A stretch of DNA of 36,324 nucleotides from an uncultured Verrucomicrobiota bacterium. GTDB lineage: Bacteria > Verrucomicrobiota > Verrucomicrobiia > Limisphaerales > UBA9464. This document shows positions 15,632 through 22,361 of this stretch, one piece after another. The notes under the pieces were generated by a model. It was not told where the DNA came from. It ran no database searches and was given only the letters and a program-made list of their open reading frames with translations. Both the position numbers and the translations under genes were made by a program. Positions within the stretch are counted from its first letter, which is position 1; each line of letters opens with the position of its first letter. The stretch spans positions 1 through 36,324 of the forward strand of contig CAIVQB010000137.1 of the NCBI GenBank assembly GCA_903907925.1, read 5' to 3'.

Positions 15632-15671
15632 AATGGGCATCGCGGACTGACCGCGGTGCCCATTTTCTTTT
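15632..15671 (+). terminator. Rho-independent terminator after rho
   Basis: AATGGGCATCGCGG (15632-15645) pairs with CCGCGGTGCCCATT (15651-15664) around a five-base loop, with one G-T pair. The tract ttcttttc follows. It starts 25 bases after the rho stop codon. The stem may also serve the convergent Sel1-repeat gene, whose stop is at 15671. Confidence 0.9.
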
Positions 15672-16186
15672 CACTGCTTCCGATGGATGTGGCAATAGGT
15701 GATCGCGAGACCTCGTCGAAGAAACCGACGGCAGGTGCAGATCTTGTCCAACTCTCCCTGTCGAAGCGCGTCCAGAAGGGCTTGGGCCTGGGGGTAGTCG
15801 CCGTCTTGGTTGGCTCTCTGAAGCAGGCGTTTGATTTCAGTCAACGCCACCGGACGAGGTCTTTTCAGCAAGAGCACCGCGAGCAGGTACATTGCTTCCT
15901 CCCGGTGGAAATCGGTGATCCATTGGCTCCGGACCGCTGCCCGGTAGGCGCGTTCCGCAGCAGCGGGGTTTCGACGGACTCCTGCGCCCTGCTGGTAGCA
16001 GTATCCCAGCTCGACGAGGTTGTCGCCGTCCTTCCGGGAAATCTTCTTCCACCAACGAAATGCCAATTGCGGCTTTCCCAGTATGCGATAGGACGCCGCA
16101 GTGTTGTGAATTGCCAGCGAATCACCGGAAATGGCCTTCTTGCGCCATCGCCTGAGATATGTCTCCTCGCGCTCGCGGTTTGTCAT
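15671..16186 (-). CDS. Sel1/TPR-repeat protein
   Basis: The 171-residue product starting MTNREREETYLRRWRKKAIS contains at least one clear Sel1-type repeat, LVELGYCYQQGAGVRRNPAAAERAYRAAV. A weaker one precedes it (IHNTAASYRILGKPQLAFRWWKK) and a helical pair follows. Such repeats mediate protein-protein contacts. There is no signal peptide, so it is probably cytoplasmic. The C-terminus has a Cys-containing basic tail (CTCRRFLRRGLAITYCHIH). The frame opens upstream to 16369, inside the MEKHLA gene, but the ATG at 16186 follows that gene's stop by one base and is the likely start. It is the last gene of the long minus-strand block. Confidence 0.7.
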   Translation of the reverse strand: MTNREREETYLRRWRKKAISGDSLAIHNTAASYRILGKPQLAFRWWKKISRKDGDNLVELGYCYQQGAGVRRNPAAAERAYRAAVRSQWITDFHREEAMYLLAVLLLKRPRPVALTEIKRLLQRANQDGDYPQAQALLDALRQGELDKICTCRRFLRRGLAITYCHIHRKQ

Positions 16187-16187
16187 C

Positions 16188-16688
16188 TTAACCTCGCGTG
16201 ATTCGATCGGTTGCACTCTCGATTGGTTCCCAGCGGTCGAAGGTCGCCGCCTGTCCGGCGGGATCTCCAGTGGCGTCGACCAGGTTCCAGACGATGGCCT
16301 GGGAAATTCGGAAGCGTTTTCCGGATTTTGAGATTCGGATGCCGGCGTAGTTGGCGATGAAACCGTCACGGGTGACGGTCGCCATCAAGCGGGCGCGTTC
16401 CTCACGTTCCGGGGCTTCTGCCGTCAGACGGGAGGGGGTCGAAGTGAAAGAATCCCAATCCATTTCCCAAAGCGTCAACGCCGCCTGGTTTCCGTAGTTG
16501 AGAATCGGATCGGCCTGAGTTCCGTGGGATACAATGACCCGCGGCGCATAGAACACTGCGAACGCGAGTTCTGCGTCAGTGCTTCGGGAAAGATCTTCTC
16601 CCAACAAATCGAGACCGGTCCAACGGCGATACGAATCGATCAGGATTCGTGCATGCGCCCGGAGTTTGGGAGTATCCCAAGGGTCCAT
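16188..16688 (-). CDS. MEKHLA domain protein
   Basis: The 166-residue product starting MDPWDTPKLRAHARILIDSY matches the MEKHLA domain pattern: FAVFYAPRVIVSHGTQADPI, YGNQAALTLWEMDWDSFTSTPSRLTAE, ER..RLM, FIANYAGIRISKSGKRFRI and VWNLVDATGDPAGQAATF. The domain is PAS-related and known mostly from plant HD-ZIP III proteins and from bacteria, where its function is not established. It spans nearly the whole protein. The frame is open to 16799, but the ATG at 16688 starts the recognisable part. The Sel1 gene follows by one base, so the two are probably co-translated. Confidence 0.8.
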   Translation of the reverse strand: MDPWDTPKLRAHARILIDSYRRWTGLDLLGEDLSRSTDAELAFAVFYAPRVIVSHGTQADPILNYGNQAALTLWEMDWDSFTSTPSRLTAEAPEREERARLMATVTRDGFIANYAGIRISKSGKRFRISQAIVWNLVDATGDPAGQAATFDRWEPIESATDRITRG

Positions 16689-16743
16689 CGGTCGCGATTG
16701 GAACAGGCACCCGATGGCGTCGTCCCTGCGGTGCAGCGGGCCG

Positions 16744-16902
16744 TCAGTGGCTCTGGCAGCCGTAGCGGATGAAGAGTCCCAGATAGCCCAGCACGCCAAC
16801 CGCCAGCAGCCACAAGGCGCCCTTGTCGACGGCCATCCACACGCCGACCCCGAGGATCACAGTGGCAATGAAGTAAAACAGGAAGGCCAGGAACGGTTTC
16901 AT
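16744..16902 (-). CDS. Small membrane protein, 52 residues, two helices
   Basis: This short frame encodes a protein starting MKPFLAFLFYFIATVILGVG and ending RYGCQSH. Hydropathy suggests two membrane segments (about 4-22 and 29-46) joined by WMAVDKGA. I do not recognise a family. It lies 72 bases after the UlaG-like gene and 55 bases before the MEKHLA gene, all on the minus strand. The absence of rare codons and the clean stop support a real gene. Confidence 0.6.
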   Translation of the reverse strand: MKPFLAFLFYFIATVILGVGVWMAVDKGALWLLAVGVLGYLGLFIRYGCQSH

Positions 16903-16974: not shown

Positions 16975-17868
16975 TCAACCTCCACCGGGAGTCCAGCGCC
17001 CACCGGCTTGAAGCACGGAAAAGCCCTGCCCAAGACCGCGACAGGCGGCCACGAATTCATCCGGGGTCGCCGTGTTGAATTCGAATTGATCGTAGTGGCA
17101 GGGAATCACCCAGCGCGCGCCGATGGCGTGGGCGAGCTCGGCTGCCTCGCGTCCCCACAGGTTTCCCGCCACGCGTCGTTCAGGCGAGCGTCCGTTGATC
17201 GGCAACAGCGCCAGATCAATGCCGCGTGTTCTCAAGAGTTCCTCCATTCCGGGATACAGCATCGTGTCGCCCGAATGATAGACGGTCCACCGACCAAACC
17301 GCACCAGCCAGCCCAGGGCGATCAGGTGGCCGTCGACATCGCGATCGAGGTGTTCGTGTGCGGCGGGAACGGCATGGATTTCGAAGGGGCCCACGCGTGT
17401 GGATTCCGGGACGGCCGATCCGGTCGAAGCCGCCGGTTTCGACGGATCGGTGACCGGGAAATCGAGTCCTAGGATTTGATCGTCCGGCAGACCGCTTCGA
17501 GTTCGCGCGCTTGCCCGGATGGACTCGGGACAAACGAGGCGCATCGCCGGATTGGCCCGACAGAGCGGTTGCAGGGTCTGTGGATCGAGATGATCGGTGT
17601 GGACGTGGGACGCGGTGACCGCGTCGATTCGAGTCAGCCGGGCGGGATCCACGACTCGTGCCGTCATCCGGACGTGGGGCTTGTCTGTGGCCGCGTATTT
17701 TTCGGTCAACGAATCCGAAAGATAAGGATCGAGGAGAATCCGATGACCCTCCCATTGAATCAGGAATCCACTCTGTCCGAGCCACCACAGGTTGAAGGCA
17801 TCGGCAGCGGAATCCGCGGCCGCGACGTCGGCGAGAAACGCGTCATTCTGGAGTGCGGGCTGGATCAT
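16975..17868 (-). CDS. UlaG-like metallo-beta-lactamase fold hydrolase
   Basis: The 297-residue protein has the metallo-beta-lactamase metal motif HVHTDH (H88, H90, D92, H93), the upstream LWWLGQSGFLIQWEGHRILLDPYLSD typical of UlaG-like lactonases, YHSGDTMLYPGM (metal-binding Asp) and IPCHYDQFEFNT. UlaG opens L-ascorbate 6-phosphate; related enzymes cleave other lactones or cyclic phosphates. The substrate here is unknown. It begins 34 bases after the MetE-like gene and probably shares its transcript. That places a lactonase-type enzyme beside a sugar kinase and a dehydrogenase, which would fit sugar acid metabolism. Confidence 0.85.
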   Translation of the reverse strand: MIQPALQNDAFLADVAAADSAADAFNLWWLGQSGFLIQWEGHRILLDPYLSDSLTEKYAATDKPHVRMTARVVDPARLTRIDAVTASHVHTDHLDPQTLQPLCRANPAMRLVCPESIRASARTRSGLPDDQILGLDFPVTDPSKPAASTGSAVPESTRVGPFEIHAVPAAHEHLDRDVDGHLIALGWLVRFGRWTVYHSGDTMLYPGMEELLRTRGIDLALLPINGRSPERRVAGNLWGREAAELAHAIGARWVIPCHYDQFEFNTATPDEFVAACRGLGQGFSVLQAGGRWTPGGG

Positions 17869-17902: not shown

Positions 17903-18964
17903 TCACGCGCAGCCGAGGGACTTTTTCACCCGCCGGACGCCTTCCACCATCGCCTTGAGTTTGCGTCGGGCGGCCCAGCGCGCGGTCTGACTGAGGCCGC
18001 AATCCGGGGCCAGCACCAGGCGTTCGGCGGGAACGAATTCCAGACAGCGACGCACCCGGCGTTCGATGTCGTCCGTGGTCTCAATGTAGTAGCTCTTCAC
18101 ATCCACCACACCGACCGCCACGTCACGACGTTTCGCGATGGCTCCGATCAATTCCAGTTCGGAAAACTCGCGGCTCGCCATTTCGACGTGGAGTTCGTCA
18201 CAGGCGAAATCGAGGAAGGCAGGAAACAGCGGTGCCAGCTGCCGGGGTCCGACCGCCCGCGCGCGATAATTTCCAAAGCACAGATGGCTGCAGATGCGGG
18301 CGCGTCCCCGAACGCCCTCCACCGTGCGATTGAAAATATCGACGAACCGCTTTGGATCCTCGCGATGCGCGTAACAACTCATGCTCGGTTCATCGACGCT
18401 GATTTCCCGGCAACCGGCATCCACCAGCGCCATCAATTCAGCCCGCACCATCGGAAGCAGCGCCTCGGTGACCGCCCATCGATCCGGATAGCCGAGCTCG
18501 GCATTGGGAACAATGCGCCCCGACAGCGTGTAGGGTCCCGGAACGGAAGCCTTCAGCGTGACGGTGGGCGACACGCTGAGCGCGACGGCGATCCGGCGCA
18601 GGCGTTGGAATTCGTCGACCACACCCAGTCCGCGAGGAGCGGTGAGCGGTGCGGTGATGGGATGGCGTCCGCGCTGATCGTGGGCTGGTGGACCGAAGCG
18701 TCGCAGAGGCTGTGATTCCAGGGCGATGCCGTGAATGAAGCCGTAAAAGCTCAGGTTGAAGTCGAGACGGGTCTGTTCGCCATCGGTGATGACGTCGAGT
18801 CCGGCCGCGAGTTGGTCATGGACGGCGGCAATCACCGCATCCTCCTGGACTTCGGCGAGATCATCCGGTCCGAAGCGTTCGAGCTGGCTGGCGGCGAGTT
18901 CGAGCCACGACGGGAACGGATAACTGCCAATGATCGTGGTTCGCAGCGGCGATGGAGGATTCAT
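17903..18964 (-). CDS. Core-MetE-like methionine synthase family protein (C-terminal MetE domain only)
   Basis: The 353-residue product matches the C-terminal, zinc-containing catalytic domain of cobalamin-independent methionine synthase without its N-terminal domain. Visible motifs are TTIIGSYPFP (9-18), DVITDGEQTR, SVPGPYTLSGR, ISVDEPSMSCY, the HxC zinc motif in SHLCFGNY, a likely Glu ligand in ELHVEMAS, and the last Cys ligand in APDCGLSQ. Free-standing core-MetE proteins are known to use methyl donors other than methyl-folate (Mes families), while others act on other thiols. Its ATG overlaps the SIS gene stop (ATGA), so it is tightly coupled to a sugar-type operon, an odd setting for methionine synthesis. 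A demethylase role is conceivable. Confidence 0.85.
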   Translation of the reverse strand: MNPPSPLRTTIIGSYPFPSWLELAASQLERFGPDDLAEVQEDAVIAAVHDQLAAGLDVITDGEQTRLDFNLSFYGFIHGIALESQPLRRFGPPAHDQRGRHPITAPLTAPRGLGVVDEFQRLRRIAVALSVSPTVTLKASVPGPYTLSGRIVPNAELGYPDRWAVTEALLPMVRAELMALVDAGCREISVDEPSMSCYAHREDPKRFVDIFNRTVEGVRGRARICSHLCFGNYRARAVGPRQLAPLFPAFLDFACDELHVEMASREFSELELIGAIAKRRDVAVGVVDVKSYYIETTDDIERRVRRCLEFVPAERLVLAPDCGLSQTARWAARRKLKAMVEGVRRVKKSLGCA

Positions 18965-19820
18965 GAAACGTTCGGGCGGGGTGCGGATGCGGGGAGGGCG
19001 GCGGCCCGGGGTGTCCCAAGGTTTTCGTAGAGCCGCGCGAGCCGGCGGGCATGTTCGTCGTAGGCCGCCTCAAACAGGGAAGTCGCGGTTTCGGCACCGA
19101 CAAGCGCGCTGGCGGTGAGAACGGTGGGCGGCTGGCCGGCGGCAGTCAGGCGGACTGCGATTTCGGCCTTCAGCGAGTTGATGAGAAGGCAGCCGCCGAC
19201 CGTGGAACCGGGGGCGACTGGAGTTTCCAGCCCGGGAATTCGGACCATGGCGTCACCGGCGGGCGCTCCGGTGTCGAGAATGATGTCGGCGAAGTCCTGC
19301 AGCTTCCGTCCGTCGGCACGGTGGCTTCGGCTTGCCTCACTGTGACGACGTGAAATGACCGCCACCACCGGCACCTTGCGGCGTTGGAATTCCTCGGCCA
19401 TTTCAATCGGGACGCGATTGCATCCGCTCGATGAGATGACCAAGGCCGAATCGACAGGCGACAAGTCATAGTTTCTCAGAATCCGCTCGGCGAGGCCGGA
19501 GACATTCTCCAGGAACATGGCCTGCCGCTGGCCGTTGGCGCCCACCACGAGATTGTGGAAGCTGAGCGAGAGTTCGACGATGGATTGAATCCGGGAAACG
19601 AGCCGTAGCGGGGCCACATTTCCTCGACGAGAATCCGGCTGTGGCCTGATCCGAAGAGGTGAACCATGCGACCCGCGAGAATGGTGGCGGTGAAGAGGTC
19701 GGCGGCCTTTCGAATCTCCGGGGCTTGCGCGGCGACCCTGTCCAACAGGCCACGGCACTGTTCGAGATAGGTGTCGGTGGCGGAGAACGCTGCGGGAACG
19801 GATGGGGCGAGCGGGATCAC
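18961..19820 (-). pseudogene. SIS domain (phosphosugar-binding) protein, frameshifted
   Basis: Two minus frames together give one SIS protein. The first, from a GTG at 19820 that overlaps the ROK stop (GTGA), reads TYLEQCRGLLDRVAAQAPEI and MVHLFGSGHSRILVEEMWPR, then YGSFPGFNP. The second continues IVELSLSFHNLVVGANGQRQ, ALVISSSGCNRVPIEMAEEF and PGSTVGGCLLINSLKAEIA, ending at 18961. Both halves belong to the same family of about 290 residues. The join is near 19581, where adding one base would restore the frame. SIS proteins bind phosphosugars, as isomerases, etherases or regulators. The break is either a sequencing error or a real inactivation; the coupling overlaps at both ends suggest an otherwise intact gene. 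Confidence 0.85.
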
Positions 19821-20764
19821 GCGGGTGAGGAAGTGGAGACGATGATGTCGTCGTTGGAAAGTGCGTTGCGGGCGGCACCCCACGCGCCGGCGAATTCGCC
19901 CAATTGCGCGGGCACGAGACGGAGCGGGTGCCCGGTCGGCCGCCATTCGAAGCGATCGAGGAGAGACTGGATCGGGTCAAAGAGAAGGTTCCCTGCGGCG
20001 GCGATTCCACCGCCCAGGATCACCACTTCGGGATCGAGAATGTTGGCGAGCGAAACAATCGCTGCGGCGAGCGCCTGGATCGAGCGTTGCCAGACTTCAG
20101 CGGCCCGGGTGTCGCCCCACCGGACCGCGTCGATCAGGTCCAGGGTCGAAGCGAAACGGCCGTTGGATCGCCGGCCGATGTTGTGATTGCCGATGGCGTC
20201 CTCCAGCGAACCCGGGGTTCCGCAAATATCCAGTTCACCAAATGGATTCAGGGAAAGGTGACCGAAGTGCCCCGCCTTGCCGCAGAAACCGCGGAGGAGG
20301 TGTCCGTCCACGATCGCCGCACCACCCACGCCGGTTCCCAACGTGAGCAGCAGGGCGTTGCTGCAACCCCGCGCCGCGCCGGCCCAGGATTCACCGAGGA
20401 GCGCGGCCTGCCCGTCGTTGAGCACCGGGACGCGATCCGTTCGTCCAAGGAAGCCCGCCCACTCCAGGCCGACCAATCCGGCGAGCCGACCGGGCATGCT
20501 GGCGATCGAACGTCCGTCGACGGCGGCAAGTCCAGGAGCTGAAACTCCGATCCGACCCGGTTCGCCGAATTGTTTTCGATCCGCGCTGACCTGATGGGTG
20601 ATGGTCGTCAGGAAATCTCCCACCCGGTCCGGATCGAACGGCGTGACGCACGCATTCAGGAGCACCCCATCCGGCGTGACCACCACCCGCTTCACGGAAC
20701 TGCCTCCGAGATCGATTCCGAAAACCGTGCCACCCGGAGAAACTGCGGATGGGGGAGGGTTCAC
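19817..20764 (-). CDS. ROK family sugar kinase-like protein
   Basis: The 315-residue product has the ROK phosphate-binding start VFGIDLGGSSVKRVVV (14-29), the catalytic Asp in PVLNDGQAA (D117), and LTLGTGVGGAAIVDG (140-154). There is no N-terminal helix-turn-helix, so it is a kinase rather than a repressor. ROK kinases phosphorylate glucose, N-acetylglucosamine, N-acetylmannosamine or fructose. The usual zinc motif CxCGxxGCxE reads DICGTPGSLE here, so two of three Cys are lost, and the usual AGE-x-GH is AGHFGH; substrate or metal use may differ. It begins with GTG overlapping the SDR stop and ends overlapping the SIS start. Confidence 0.88.
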   Translation of the reverse strand: MNPPPSAVSPGGTVFGIDLGGSSVKRVVVTPDGVLLNACVTPFDPDRVGDFLTTITHQVSADRKQFGEPGRIGVSAPGLAAVDGRSIASMPGRLAGLVGLEWAGFLGRTDRVPVLNDGQAALLGESWAGAARGCSNALLLTLGTGVGGAAIVDGHLLRGFCGKAGHFGHLSLNPFGELDICGTPGSLEDAIGNHNIGRRSNGRFASTLDLIDAVRWGDTRAAEVWQRSIQALAAAIVSLANILDPEVVILGGGIAAAGNLLFDPIQSLLDRFEWRPTGHPLRLVPAQLGEFAGAWGAARNALSNDDIIVSTSSPA

Positions 20765-21594
20765 GGAAGTTGCCCTTCGGAAACTGTCCAGCCTCCATCC
20801 ACGGCGATGACCTGGCCGGTGACGAATTCCGATCCCGACGACAACAGCCAGACGACGGCGGCATCGAGGTCGGTGGGGTTTCCGATGCGGCCTCCATCGA
20901 GCGGTTGTTTGGAGCGGATGAAGTCGAGGATCTCCGGGTTCTGCTGCGCCCGCGTGGACATGGGCGTGGCCACCAGACCCGGTGCCAGCGCATTGATGCG
21001 AATACGCTTCGGCGCGTAGGTGCTGGCGGCACTGCGGGTCAGTCCGATGATGGCTGACTTGGCGGCGGCGTAGGCATGGGTGCCAAAAAAATGTGGCGAC
21101 GGGGAAAGGCCGAGGACCGAAGAGCAGTTCAGGATCGCTCCCGGACTGTCCTGTCGGAGGAACTGCTGGACGGCGGCACGGTTCGAGTAAAAAACCGAGG
21201 TGAGATTCAGGCGCAGCGTGAAGTCCCAGCCGGAATCCGTCAGCAAATCCAAGGGACCGTCGCCTTCGCTCCGACCGCTTCCGCCGGCGACGTGATACAA
21301 TCCGTCAAAGCGTCCGAACGCTTCCAGCGCTTGCGCAATGGCGGTGGGAGCGGTTCCAGGATCGGTGGCGTCGGCGGACAACAACCGTGCCGAATCGCCC
21401 AACTGCGCGAGTGCGGCCTGCCCGTCAATGGTATCGCGGCCCACAATGACAACCCGGCCACCGGCGGCGATCACGGCGCGCGCGGCGGACAGACCGAGGC
21501 CGGCGGTGCCACCGATGATGACGAGTACCTTGTCAGCGAGAAGGCCGGGCATGCCGCCAGCATCGGAACCCGCGGCGTCGGGTTCCAGTCTCAT
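20761..21594 (-). CDS. Short-chain dehydrogenase/reductase (SDR)
   Basis: The product is a classical SDR. It has the cofactor loop GGTAGLGLS, Asp near VVIVGRDT, HVAGGSG in place of NNAG, the catalytic Ser in ILNCSSVLG, and YxxxK in YAAAK. The closing part (INALAPGLVATPM, VTGQVIAVDGGWT) is typical of sugar and polyol dehydrogenases. The frame opens at 21705 within the preceding gene. I prefer the ATG at 21594 (MRLEPDAAG, 277 residues), while an ATG at 21552 starting MPGLLADKVLV is also possible. It heads the coupled SDR-ROK-SIS-MetE-like unit and follows the secreted-protein gene by about 23 bases. Confidence 0.88.
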   Translation of the reverse strand: MRLEPDAAGSDAGGMPGLLADKVLVIIGGTAGLGLSAARAVIAAGGRVVIVGRDTIDGQAALAQLGDSARLLSADATDPGTAPTAIAQALEAFGRFDGLYHVAGGSGRSEGDGPLDLLTDSGWDFTLRLNLTSVFYSNRAAVQQFLRQDSPGAILNCSSVLGLSPSPHFFGTHAYAAAKSAIIGLTRSAASTYAPKRIRINALAPGLVATPMSTRAQQNPEILDFIRSKQPLDGGRIGNPTDLDAAVVWLLSSGSEFVTGQVIAVDGGWTVSEGQLP

Positions 21595-21617: not shown

Positions 21618-22361
21618 TCAGCGGGTAATCAGCCGGAAAAATCCAATCGTGCCCGTCACGGGAAAGGTGGTCGAGGTGCCGGTGACTCCGGGCACGTCGG
21701 TCCAAGCGCTGCTACCGGTGACGACGTCCTGCCGTTGCAACTTGTACGTGGAGTCCTGCCAACTGACCTGGATCTGATTGACCGCAGGGGAACTGATCAC
21801 CAAACCCTGACCGTCGTTCACGGTGACGGTTGCCGTAAACATGGCGTGACCGGTGAGGACCTGCCGGATGTGCCACCCGCCAGTGCTGCGCAGCCACATG
21901 TCATCGTAAGCCTGGCCCTCGGTGGGGATGGTATCTGGGGTCAGGAGTCCGGCGGAGTTGGCTCCGCCGTCATTGCCCTGAAACTCGACCGTGTAGGTGA
22001 AGCTCTTGGGAATCGGTGTCGAATTGTAACTGATGGACACCTGATCATGCCCGAGTTTGATGTCCAGCGGGTTGCTTTGGTAGAGGAGCGTTCCCGGGGT
22101 GCCCTGGCCGCCGTCGTTCTGATAGAATCGAACGATCATCCCGGCGGTCATCGAGTAGTTCGACTCGTATTCGAACGTGAAACCGGTCAGCAGTTTCTGA
22201 GAGTCGTCGCCCCGGAGAAAGATCTGGTTGCCGAACTCACCGACCAGCGAGATTTCGCGGCTGGTCGGACTGCTCGGCACCTCATAGCCAATCCCCGCCT
22301 GGGCGGAGGGAAGCATCAATGCGGCTCCGAGTAGGGAGAGGGCGAAGTCGGTTCTGCTCAT
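21618..22361 (-). CDS. Secreted protein of unknown function with a verrucomicrobial-type C-terminal domain
   Basis: The 247-residue product has a signal peptide with probable cleavage after MLPSAQA (about residue 22). The central part (FEYESNYSMTAGMIVRFYQN, LGHDQVSISYNS, YTVEFQGNDG) looks like an all-beta extracellular domain. The end, VNQIQVSWQDSTYKLQRQDV ... SAWTDVPGVTG ... FFRLITR, resembles a short beta module often found at the C-termini of secreted verrucomicrobial proteins. I cannot give a function. It is the first gene of the minus-strand block, about 23 bases before the SDR start, so it may share that transcript. Confidence 0.75.
   Translation of the reverse strand: MSRTDFALSLLGAALMLPSAQAGIGYEVPSSPTSREISLVGEFGNQIFLRGDDSQKLLTGFTFEYESNYSMTAGMIVRFYQNDGGQGTPGTLLYQSNPLDIKLGHDQVSISYNSTPIPKSFTYTVEFQGNDGGANSAGLLTPDTIPTEGQAYDDMWLRSTGGWHIRQVLTGHAMFTATVTVNDGQGLVISSPAVNQIQVSWQDSTYKLQRQDVVTGSSAWTDVPGVTGTSTTFPVTGTIGFFRLITR

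Follow-up and report, generated by a model that had tools for sequence, protein, structure and literature searches.

A putative family of core homocysteine methyltransferases encoded with sugar-metabolism genes in many bacterial phyla

The window analyzed here is the 36,324-nucleotide contig CAIVQB010000137.1 (assembly GCA_903907925.1) of an uncultured Verrucomicrobiota bacterium (Limisphaerales, UBA9464), in which a free-standing MetE catalytic domain is encoded next to an SDR-family oxidoreductase, a ROK-family kinase, an SIS-domain protein and an UlaG-like hydrolase. The MetE-like protein belongs to a family that is conserved across phyla and co-occurs with particular types of SIS and UlaG proteins; it keeps an intact homocysteine and zinc site, has lost the folate site, and is accompanied by SIS proteins with conserved catalytic residues. 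Judging from sequence comparison, it seems to represent a new family of core homocysteine methyltransferases, the donor of which is probably sugar-linked. The favored reading, to which we assign a probability of roughly 0.38, is a zinc-dependent, folate-independent homocysteine S-methyltransferase whose methyl donor would be an anionic, phosphorylated intermediate of the linked sugar route and whose product would be methionine; the donor, the sugar, the enzyme roles and the order of the steps are what we infer. A search of the open-licence PMC literature (titles and starts of abstracts) returned no description of this family or cluster, which is not proof of absence.

The MetE-like family and its active site

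Among 84,980 species, each represented by one genome, a scan identifies at least 80 loci with proteins 66–84% identical to the MetE-like protein of the window, in records titled Verrucomicrobia, Acidobacteria, Planctomycetota, Gemmatimonadota, Latescibacterota, Chloroflexi, Armatimonadetes and others; the near-full-length outsiders seen reach 42% identity at most. Seven of 387 Verrucomicrobiota genomes carry a member (at least 67% identity, the source genome included), the next near-full-length match being at 33%. Because these seven represent five genera in three families, with three in one genus, they are not seven independent cases. Among 247 Acidobacteriota genomes, six carry a member at 66–71%, followed by two matches at 40–42%. 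In a quick tree of 74 rows, which included full-length MetE and no recognized MesA–MesD and from which 3rpd was left out, all 31 family members lie on one side of a single branch (SH-aLRT 100) that adjoins the two 40–42% Acidobacteriota rows, a placement for which the program warns of a possible long-branch artefact. Whether the protein clusters with known methionine synthases had been raised in an earlier, sequence-only reading of this DNA; the family stands apart from those in the tree, among which the Mes types are not represented. No matched NCBIfam MetE-type model reaches its cut-off. By these sequence criteria, the MetE-like protein is the founder of a tight family across many phyla.

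Active-site positions were assigned by alignment to E. coli MetE (numbered as the T. maritima enzyme plus 22), with sites taken from PMC539065 (excerpt) and PMC7857596. The zinc ligands H227, C229, E261 and C322 and the homocysteine residues S14, E63 and D191 are invariant in 93 of 93 family rows (81 plus 12 more; 92 distinct). In the T. maritima MetE structure, a Trp stacks against the pterin, a Glu holds it in place, and a His is among the candidates for the proton donor (PMC539065, excerpt). In all 93 family rows, the corresponding E. coli folate residues W561 and H694 are replaced by R150 and K290 and an added loop at 95–101 starts with HDQR; E605 aligns with a gap. The full-length MetE controls L111 and L112, from Verrucomicrobiota genomes, retain Trp, Glu and His. 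The sequence-only reading had asked whether the homocysteine and folate sites persist; by alignment, the former does and the latter has been replaced. The pattern suggests that the donor pocket has been rebuilt to accept an anionic donor other than folate, R150 and K290 being placed there by alignment to MetE alone.

An AlphaFold2 model of the protein (mean pLDDT 88; below 50 at 90–96, beside the HDQR loop) has as its nearest structure MesD from Shewanella (3rpd; Z 36.0, root-mean-square deviation 2.6 over 320 residues, 26% identity), followed by the C-terminal halves of MetE, and the matches listed comprise no barrels other than those of the MetE, UROD and MetH kinds. Like the family, MesD is a single MetE catalytic barrel with the same zinc and amino-acid residues; unlike the family, it has T in place of R150 and A in place of K290 (read from the alignment) and differs in that the family has sugar-gene neighbors. 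MesD requires the partner MesX, or DUF1852; no DUF1852 was found among nine window proteins scanned, and the genome was not searched for it. With MetE, the family shares the C-terminal barrel, the HCEC zinc site and the homocysteine residues; it is set apart from MetE by the changes at W561, H694 and E605 and by a genome in which no N-terminal barrel was found. The core MetE of Dehalococcoides (MesB type) is likewise a single barrel without a folate domain, but it uses methylcobalamin in vitro and has Asp for the zinc Glu that the family keeps (PMC7005905, excerpt).

In the source genome, which is 96% complete, the MetE-like protein is the sole PF01717 match and no N-terminal MetE barrel (Meth_synt_1, PF08267) was found; MetH is present there and in 38 of the 42 carriers tested. 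An ordinary or split MetE was rejected on the missing barrel and the replaced folate residues, and a role as the only methionine synthase of the host on the presence of MetH in those carriers.

Several other MetE-like proteins came up in these searches. A second uncharacterized group (L091–L103 and L105–L110; 26–30% identity) has intact zinc and homocysteine residues, with the folate Trp changed to Thr and the His to Lys. The Acidobacteriota genomes G452 and G478 each have five MetE-like matches (E 1e-20 or better), the 42% match in L151 sits near dehydrogenase-complex-like genes (named by eye), and a protein in L131 has lost the zinc ligands (Y, G, A and G at the four positions).

Gene neighborhood and co-occurrence

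The cluster of the window comprises the following genes, all on the minus strand:

20761–21594, minus: SDR-family oxidoreductase, 277 amino acids (Pfam adh_short_C2, 1.6e-49; 71–74% identical in L002 and L003)
19817–20764, minus: ROK-family sugar kinase, 315 amino acids (Pfam ROK, 2.2e-44)
18961–19820, minus: SIS / UPF0309 phospho-sugar enzyme (SIS_2 and PRK02947 split over two frames; frame broken at 19581/19582)
17903–18964, minus: free-standing MetE catalytic domain, 353 amino acids (Pfam Meth_synt_2, 5.6e-26)
16975–17868, minus: UlaG-like metallo-beta-lactamase-fold hydrolase, 297 amino acids (Pfam Lactamase_B_2, 1e-24)

The domain assignments originally made from the letters alone are thus all recovered by Pfam. 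More specific models are not reached: no NCBIfam model is over its cut-off for the SDR protein among the matches listed (25 of 228), none of the 13 NCBIfam matches of the ROK protein reaches its cut-off, and the UlaG-like protein scores 49.7 bits against the PRK11709 UlaG model, below the cut-off of 306. The latter protein does match the UlaG structure 2wyl at 6e-08, and its residues H88, H90, D92, H93, H171, D201 and H258 are kept in at least 72 of 74 rows. In L054, L056 and L144, the ROK position is occupied by a ketohexokinase-like gene.

The genes overlap by 4 bases at GTGA 20761–20764 (SDR-ROK), GTGA 19817–19820 (ROK-SIS) and ATGA 18961–18964 (SIS-MetE), and 34 bases separate the MetE-like from the UlaG-like gene. 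Of the earlier description of four genes joined by such overlaps, the three overlaps and the gap are read directly from the sequence, whereas the SIS gene is not one open frame. In family loci with adjacent genes, a start with the same 4-base overlap is possible in 15 of 20 SDR-ROK, 7 of 15 ROK-SIS, 6 of 27 SIS-MetE and 28 of 66 MetE-UlaG pairs, and in our judgement this coupling recurs above chance.

Beyond these genes, a MEKHLA-domain protein (16188–16799, minus) and an overlapping Sel1-like protein below the Pfam cut-off (15671–16369, minus) are encoded downstream of the cluster, and a MEKHLA gene also follows UlaG in L002 and L003. Between obg and the SDR gene lies a gene (21618–22361, minus) that holds the same place in L002 and L003; its product has no Pfam match and, by eye, a signal-like N-terminus.

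Neighbors were counted by tblastn in 91 family loci (80 from the species-level scan plus 11 more), of which 51 have 3 kb on both sides; gene orders taken from gene lists are less sure, the gene caller having sometimes taken antisense frames as genes in GC-rich loci. On the same strand and within 3 kb, the 51 loci contain SIS in 38 cases, UlaG in 38, SDR in 17, ROK in 13, PurU in 10, a Gfo/Idh/MocA pair in 10 and a PTE-type lactonase in 7; in 44 of them, at least one of SDR, ROK, SIS and UlaG is present. UlaG follows MetE within 400 nucleotides on the same strand in 57 of the 79 loci with enough sequence. As a control, 42 MetE paralogue loci (1.5-kb flanks, some shorter) contain no SIS, ROK or UlaG gene and two SDR genes, and 9 of 12 family loci fetched in the same way have a partner. 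The gene set thus recurs in several phyla; neighbors confined to close relatives, which in the sequence-only reading would have counted against a pathway, are not what is seen.

The association extends to gene content. The close SIS type (at least 73% identity) is found in 9 of 387 Verrucomicrobiota genomes, namely all 7 carriers and 2 of 380 non-carriers, and the close UlaG type (E 1e-68 or better) in 8, all 7 carriers and 1 of 380 non-carriers. This co-occurrence is limited to the close types, weaker relatives at 1e-20 being common (SIS in 84 and UlaG in 51 of the 387 genomes, close types included). In G187, G190 and G199, both SIS and UlaG are encoded away from MetE, as is UlaG in G234; being unlinked and yet present, these genes are kept together with MetE by more than position. 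Conversely, SIS occurs without MetE in G313 (in the order SDR-ROK-SIS-FAD-PTE, with ROK in two frames) and in G375, while G078 has UlaG next to a KDPG-type (2-keto-3-deoxy-6-phosphogluconate) aldolase, again with no MetE. Going by these three genomes, MetE seems to have been added to a sugar route, which is how a step that removes a substituent would look.

A gene for PurU, formyl-tetrahydrofolate deformylase (TIGR00655, over cut-off), sits between SIS and MetE in 14 of the 91 loci, which fits a folate-free supply of methionine. E. coli PurU is activated by methionine, and a second, folate-free methionine source would leave one-carbon folates to drain; this fits either a sugar-linked or a corrinoid donor. 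A KDPG aldolase is encoded inside the cluster of L072.

Some loci also include transport and nucleoside-related genes, none of which is used here as proof. In L058 (L058:83-4224), genes for a sugar-binding protein, a CUT2-type permease, a nucleoside hydrolase family protein and a PfkB kinase run straight into SDR-ROK-Gfo-SIS-MetE-UlaG, a single case that hints at a nucleoside or pentose substrate. Another single case is L059, in which a phosphorylase-superfamily (PNP_UDP_1) protein is encoded upstream of MetE. A further weak lead is the presence of Nuc_H_symport-type genes in L033, L045, L073 and L144; CUT2-like permeases are also encoded in L140–L142, L160, L162 and L164, in part at distances of several kb from MetE or UlaG, and MFS transporters beside SIS in L159, L161 and L163 (by eye; Pfam for two in L161).

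The SIS partner and its relationship to NagS

In the window, the SIS frame that opens with GTG at 19820 stops at 19476, and the frame that ends in the ATGA at 18961 is a different one; each carries part of the NCBIfam sugar-isomerase model and neither spans the whole gene. Alignment with L002, L003, L005 and L008 indicates that one base is missing between 19582 and 19581, and because these four relatives have one base more, the break is read as a recent mutation or an assembly error. Programmed frameshifting was set aside on the single missing base, the one criterion applied. The sequence-only reading missed the frameshift. The SIS gene of the nearest relative, L002 (L002:6947-7761), has a separate lesion, a 17-base insertion, and the intact copy of L003 was used for inference in place of that of the window.

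The closest solved structures to the intact L003 protein are 3cvj and NagS (9eol; SCO4393, UPF0309). NagS, the nearest characterized relative, dehydrates N-acetylglucosamine 6-phosphate (GlcNAc-6P) to an unsaturated sugar phosphate, loss of H53, R64, E94 or D179 abolishes its activity, and this activity is, in the excerpted text, reported only for Streptomycetaceae (PMC12680351, excerpt). All 76 SIS rows from family loci (L003 counted twice) retain the four essential residues, together with S54 and S119. Two substrate-side residues of NagS are changed, S91 to M or L in all 76 rows, and N228 to A or V in 53 of the 59 close rows and to Q in 16 of the 17 distant rows. These residues support work on a phospho-sugar, perhaps by elimination; they support no particular substrate.

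Candidate methyl donors

In the envisaged route, the ROK (or Khk) kinase would phosphorylate the sugar, the SDR protein would oxidize it, the UlaG-like protein would open a lactone, and the NagS-like SIS enzyme would remove water by elimination. Next to a 2-O-methyl group, such an elimination would convert an inert methyl ether to an enol methyl ether, from which zinc-bound homocysteine could take the methyl to form methionine; a KDPG-type aldolase could then cleave the 2-keto-3-deoxy product left after demethylation. Our proposal, drawn from chemistry, is that SIS makes the enol methyl ether that the MetE-like enzyme demethylates. Stated as a two-enzyme methyl salvage, in which SIS would eliminate the 3-hydroxyl of a 2-O-methyl sugar phosphate and the MetE-like enzyme would move the methyl to homocysteine, leaving a 2-keto-3-deoxy product, the scheme is a long shot. 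The substrate would perhaps be RNA-derived 2-O-methylribose or a methylated sugar of a polysaccharide, and, if this is correct, ether-bound methyl would return to the methionine pool without folate, B12 or oxygen. A literature search on 2-O-methylribose breakdown returned nothing to the point, and 4-O-methylglucuronate was set aside as an idea for which the search likewise gave nothing.

The main rival, which we regard as doubtful, is that the methyl comes from a methyl-corrinoid protein, as is thought for MesB-type core methionine synthases, with the sugar pathway or an adjacent UROD-family methyltransferase loading the corrinoid. The clusters of L033 (Opitutaceae) and L072 (Chloroflexota) indeed include MtgC/MtbC-like B12 proteins, mutually 55% identical, and UROD-family proteins, the B12 protein of L072 being directly upstream of MetE; UROD-like proteins are also present in L060 and L061, and 21 of 47 carriers have a corrinoid-protein relative outside a MetH-length frame (counted by hand; one, in G391, in a 781-amino-acid frame), so that a corrinoid donor is possible in some carriers. 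The other 26 carriers, however, have matches only in frames of at least 913 amino acids (22) or none (4); matches occur in 322 of 387 genomes, MetH included, and are not special to carriers; and a corrinoid protein is encoded in only 2 of the 91 family loci, many of those stretches being short. In the source genome, the two B12-binding_2 (PF02607) hits are MetH and a frame of 332 amino acids, which we take to be the size of CarH-type regulators, and no dedicated corrinoid donor was recognized.

An intact homocysteine half combined with a rebuilt donor half would also suit a homocysteine alkyltransferase, in which zinc-bound homocysteine would attack an electrophilic sugar (e.g., an unsaturated one made by SIS) and form a thioether, much as epoxyalkane:CoM transferase forms a thioether from epoxides. 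The unsaturated sugar phosphate made by NagS is in line with this (PMC12680351, excerpt), but no thioether-cleaving or thioether-using gene was recognized among the subset of neighbors scanned, and the PurU neighbors fit methyl flow better; we consider this reading improbable. That the protein is one more methionine synthase with an unassigned donor, with the sugar genes linked only by shared regulation or co-transfer, agrees with the kept homocysteine site, with MesD 3rpd as the nearest structure and with the frequent co-occurrence of MesD with MetH (75% of cases; PMC7857596, excerpt); the unlinked co-occurrence of MetE, SIS and UlaG in G187, G190, G199 and (UlaG) G234, and the MetH already present in 38 of 42 carriers tested, speak against it, and we consider it improbable.

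Several observations weigh against a sugar-derived methyl. The search found no paper with a sugar methyl ether feeding a MetE-fold enzyme, and methionine offers little outlet for a sugar used as a bulk carbon source. ROK is found in only 13 and SDR in only 17 of the 51 loci, and none of the four partners in 7. The SIS gene of the window is itself frameshifted, and for distant NagS homologues (26–36% identity), GlcNAc-6P dehydratase activity is given as negligible or none (PMC12680351, excerpt), so that the proposed SIS chemistry is uncertain. Support from the aldolase is slim, with one cluster and such a gene somewhere in 30 of 30 carriers tested (a count made in carriers only), and the corrinoid protein in two clusters suggests another donor there. 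A methylated-sugar pathway, proposed in the sequence-only reading, nevertheless remains the best interpretation by inference; for its variants, a sulfur-sugar or sugar-thiol repair route, nothing was found in support, and they were set aside given that no gene for either was recognized among the neighbors scanned.

Precedents for such chemistry exist in outline. LigM, a tetrahydrofolate-dependent O-demethylase, needs neither B12 nor an oxygenase. It demethylates methyl ethers onto a carrier, there tetrahydrofolate, but belongs to another protein family, uses that other carrier and acts on aromatic ethers (PMC8091115, excerpt). The P450 demethylation of 6-O-methylgalactose handles a methylated sugar, but it is oxidative and releases formaldehyde (PMC10033563, excerpt).

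Core methionine synthases exist whose methyl source has not been found (PMC7857596, excerpt), and the MetE-like family adds one that comes with a genomic clue to the donor, common to many phyla. The cluster gives concrete enzyme pairs for assay and suggests roles for widespread genes so far matched only to the broad SDR, ROK, SIS and metallo-beta-lactamase-fold families. If the donor is a sugar ether, the family would offer a novel route for cleaving methyl ethers and recycling methyl groups.

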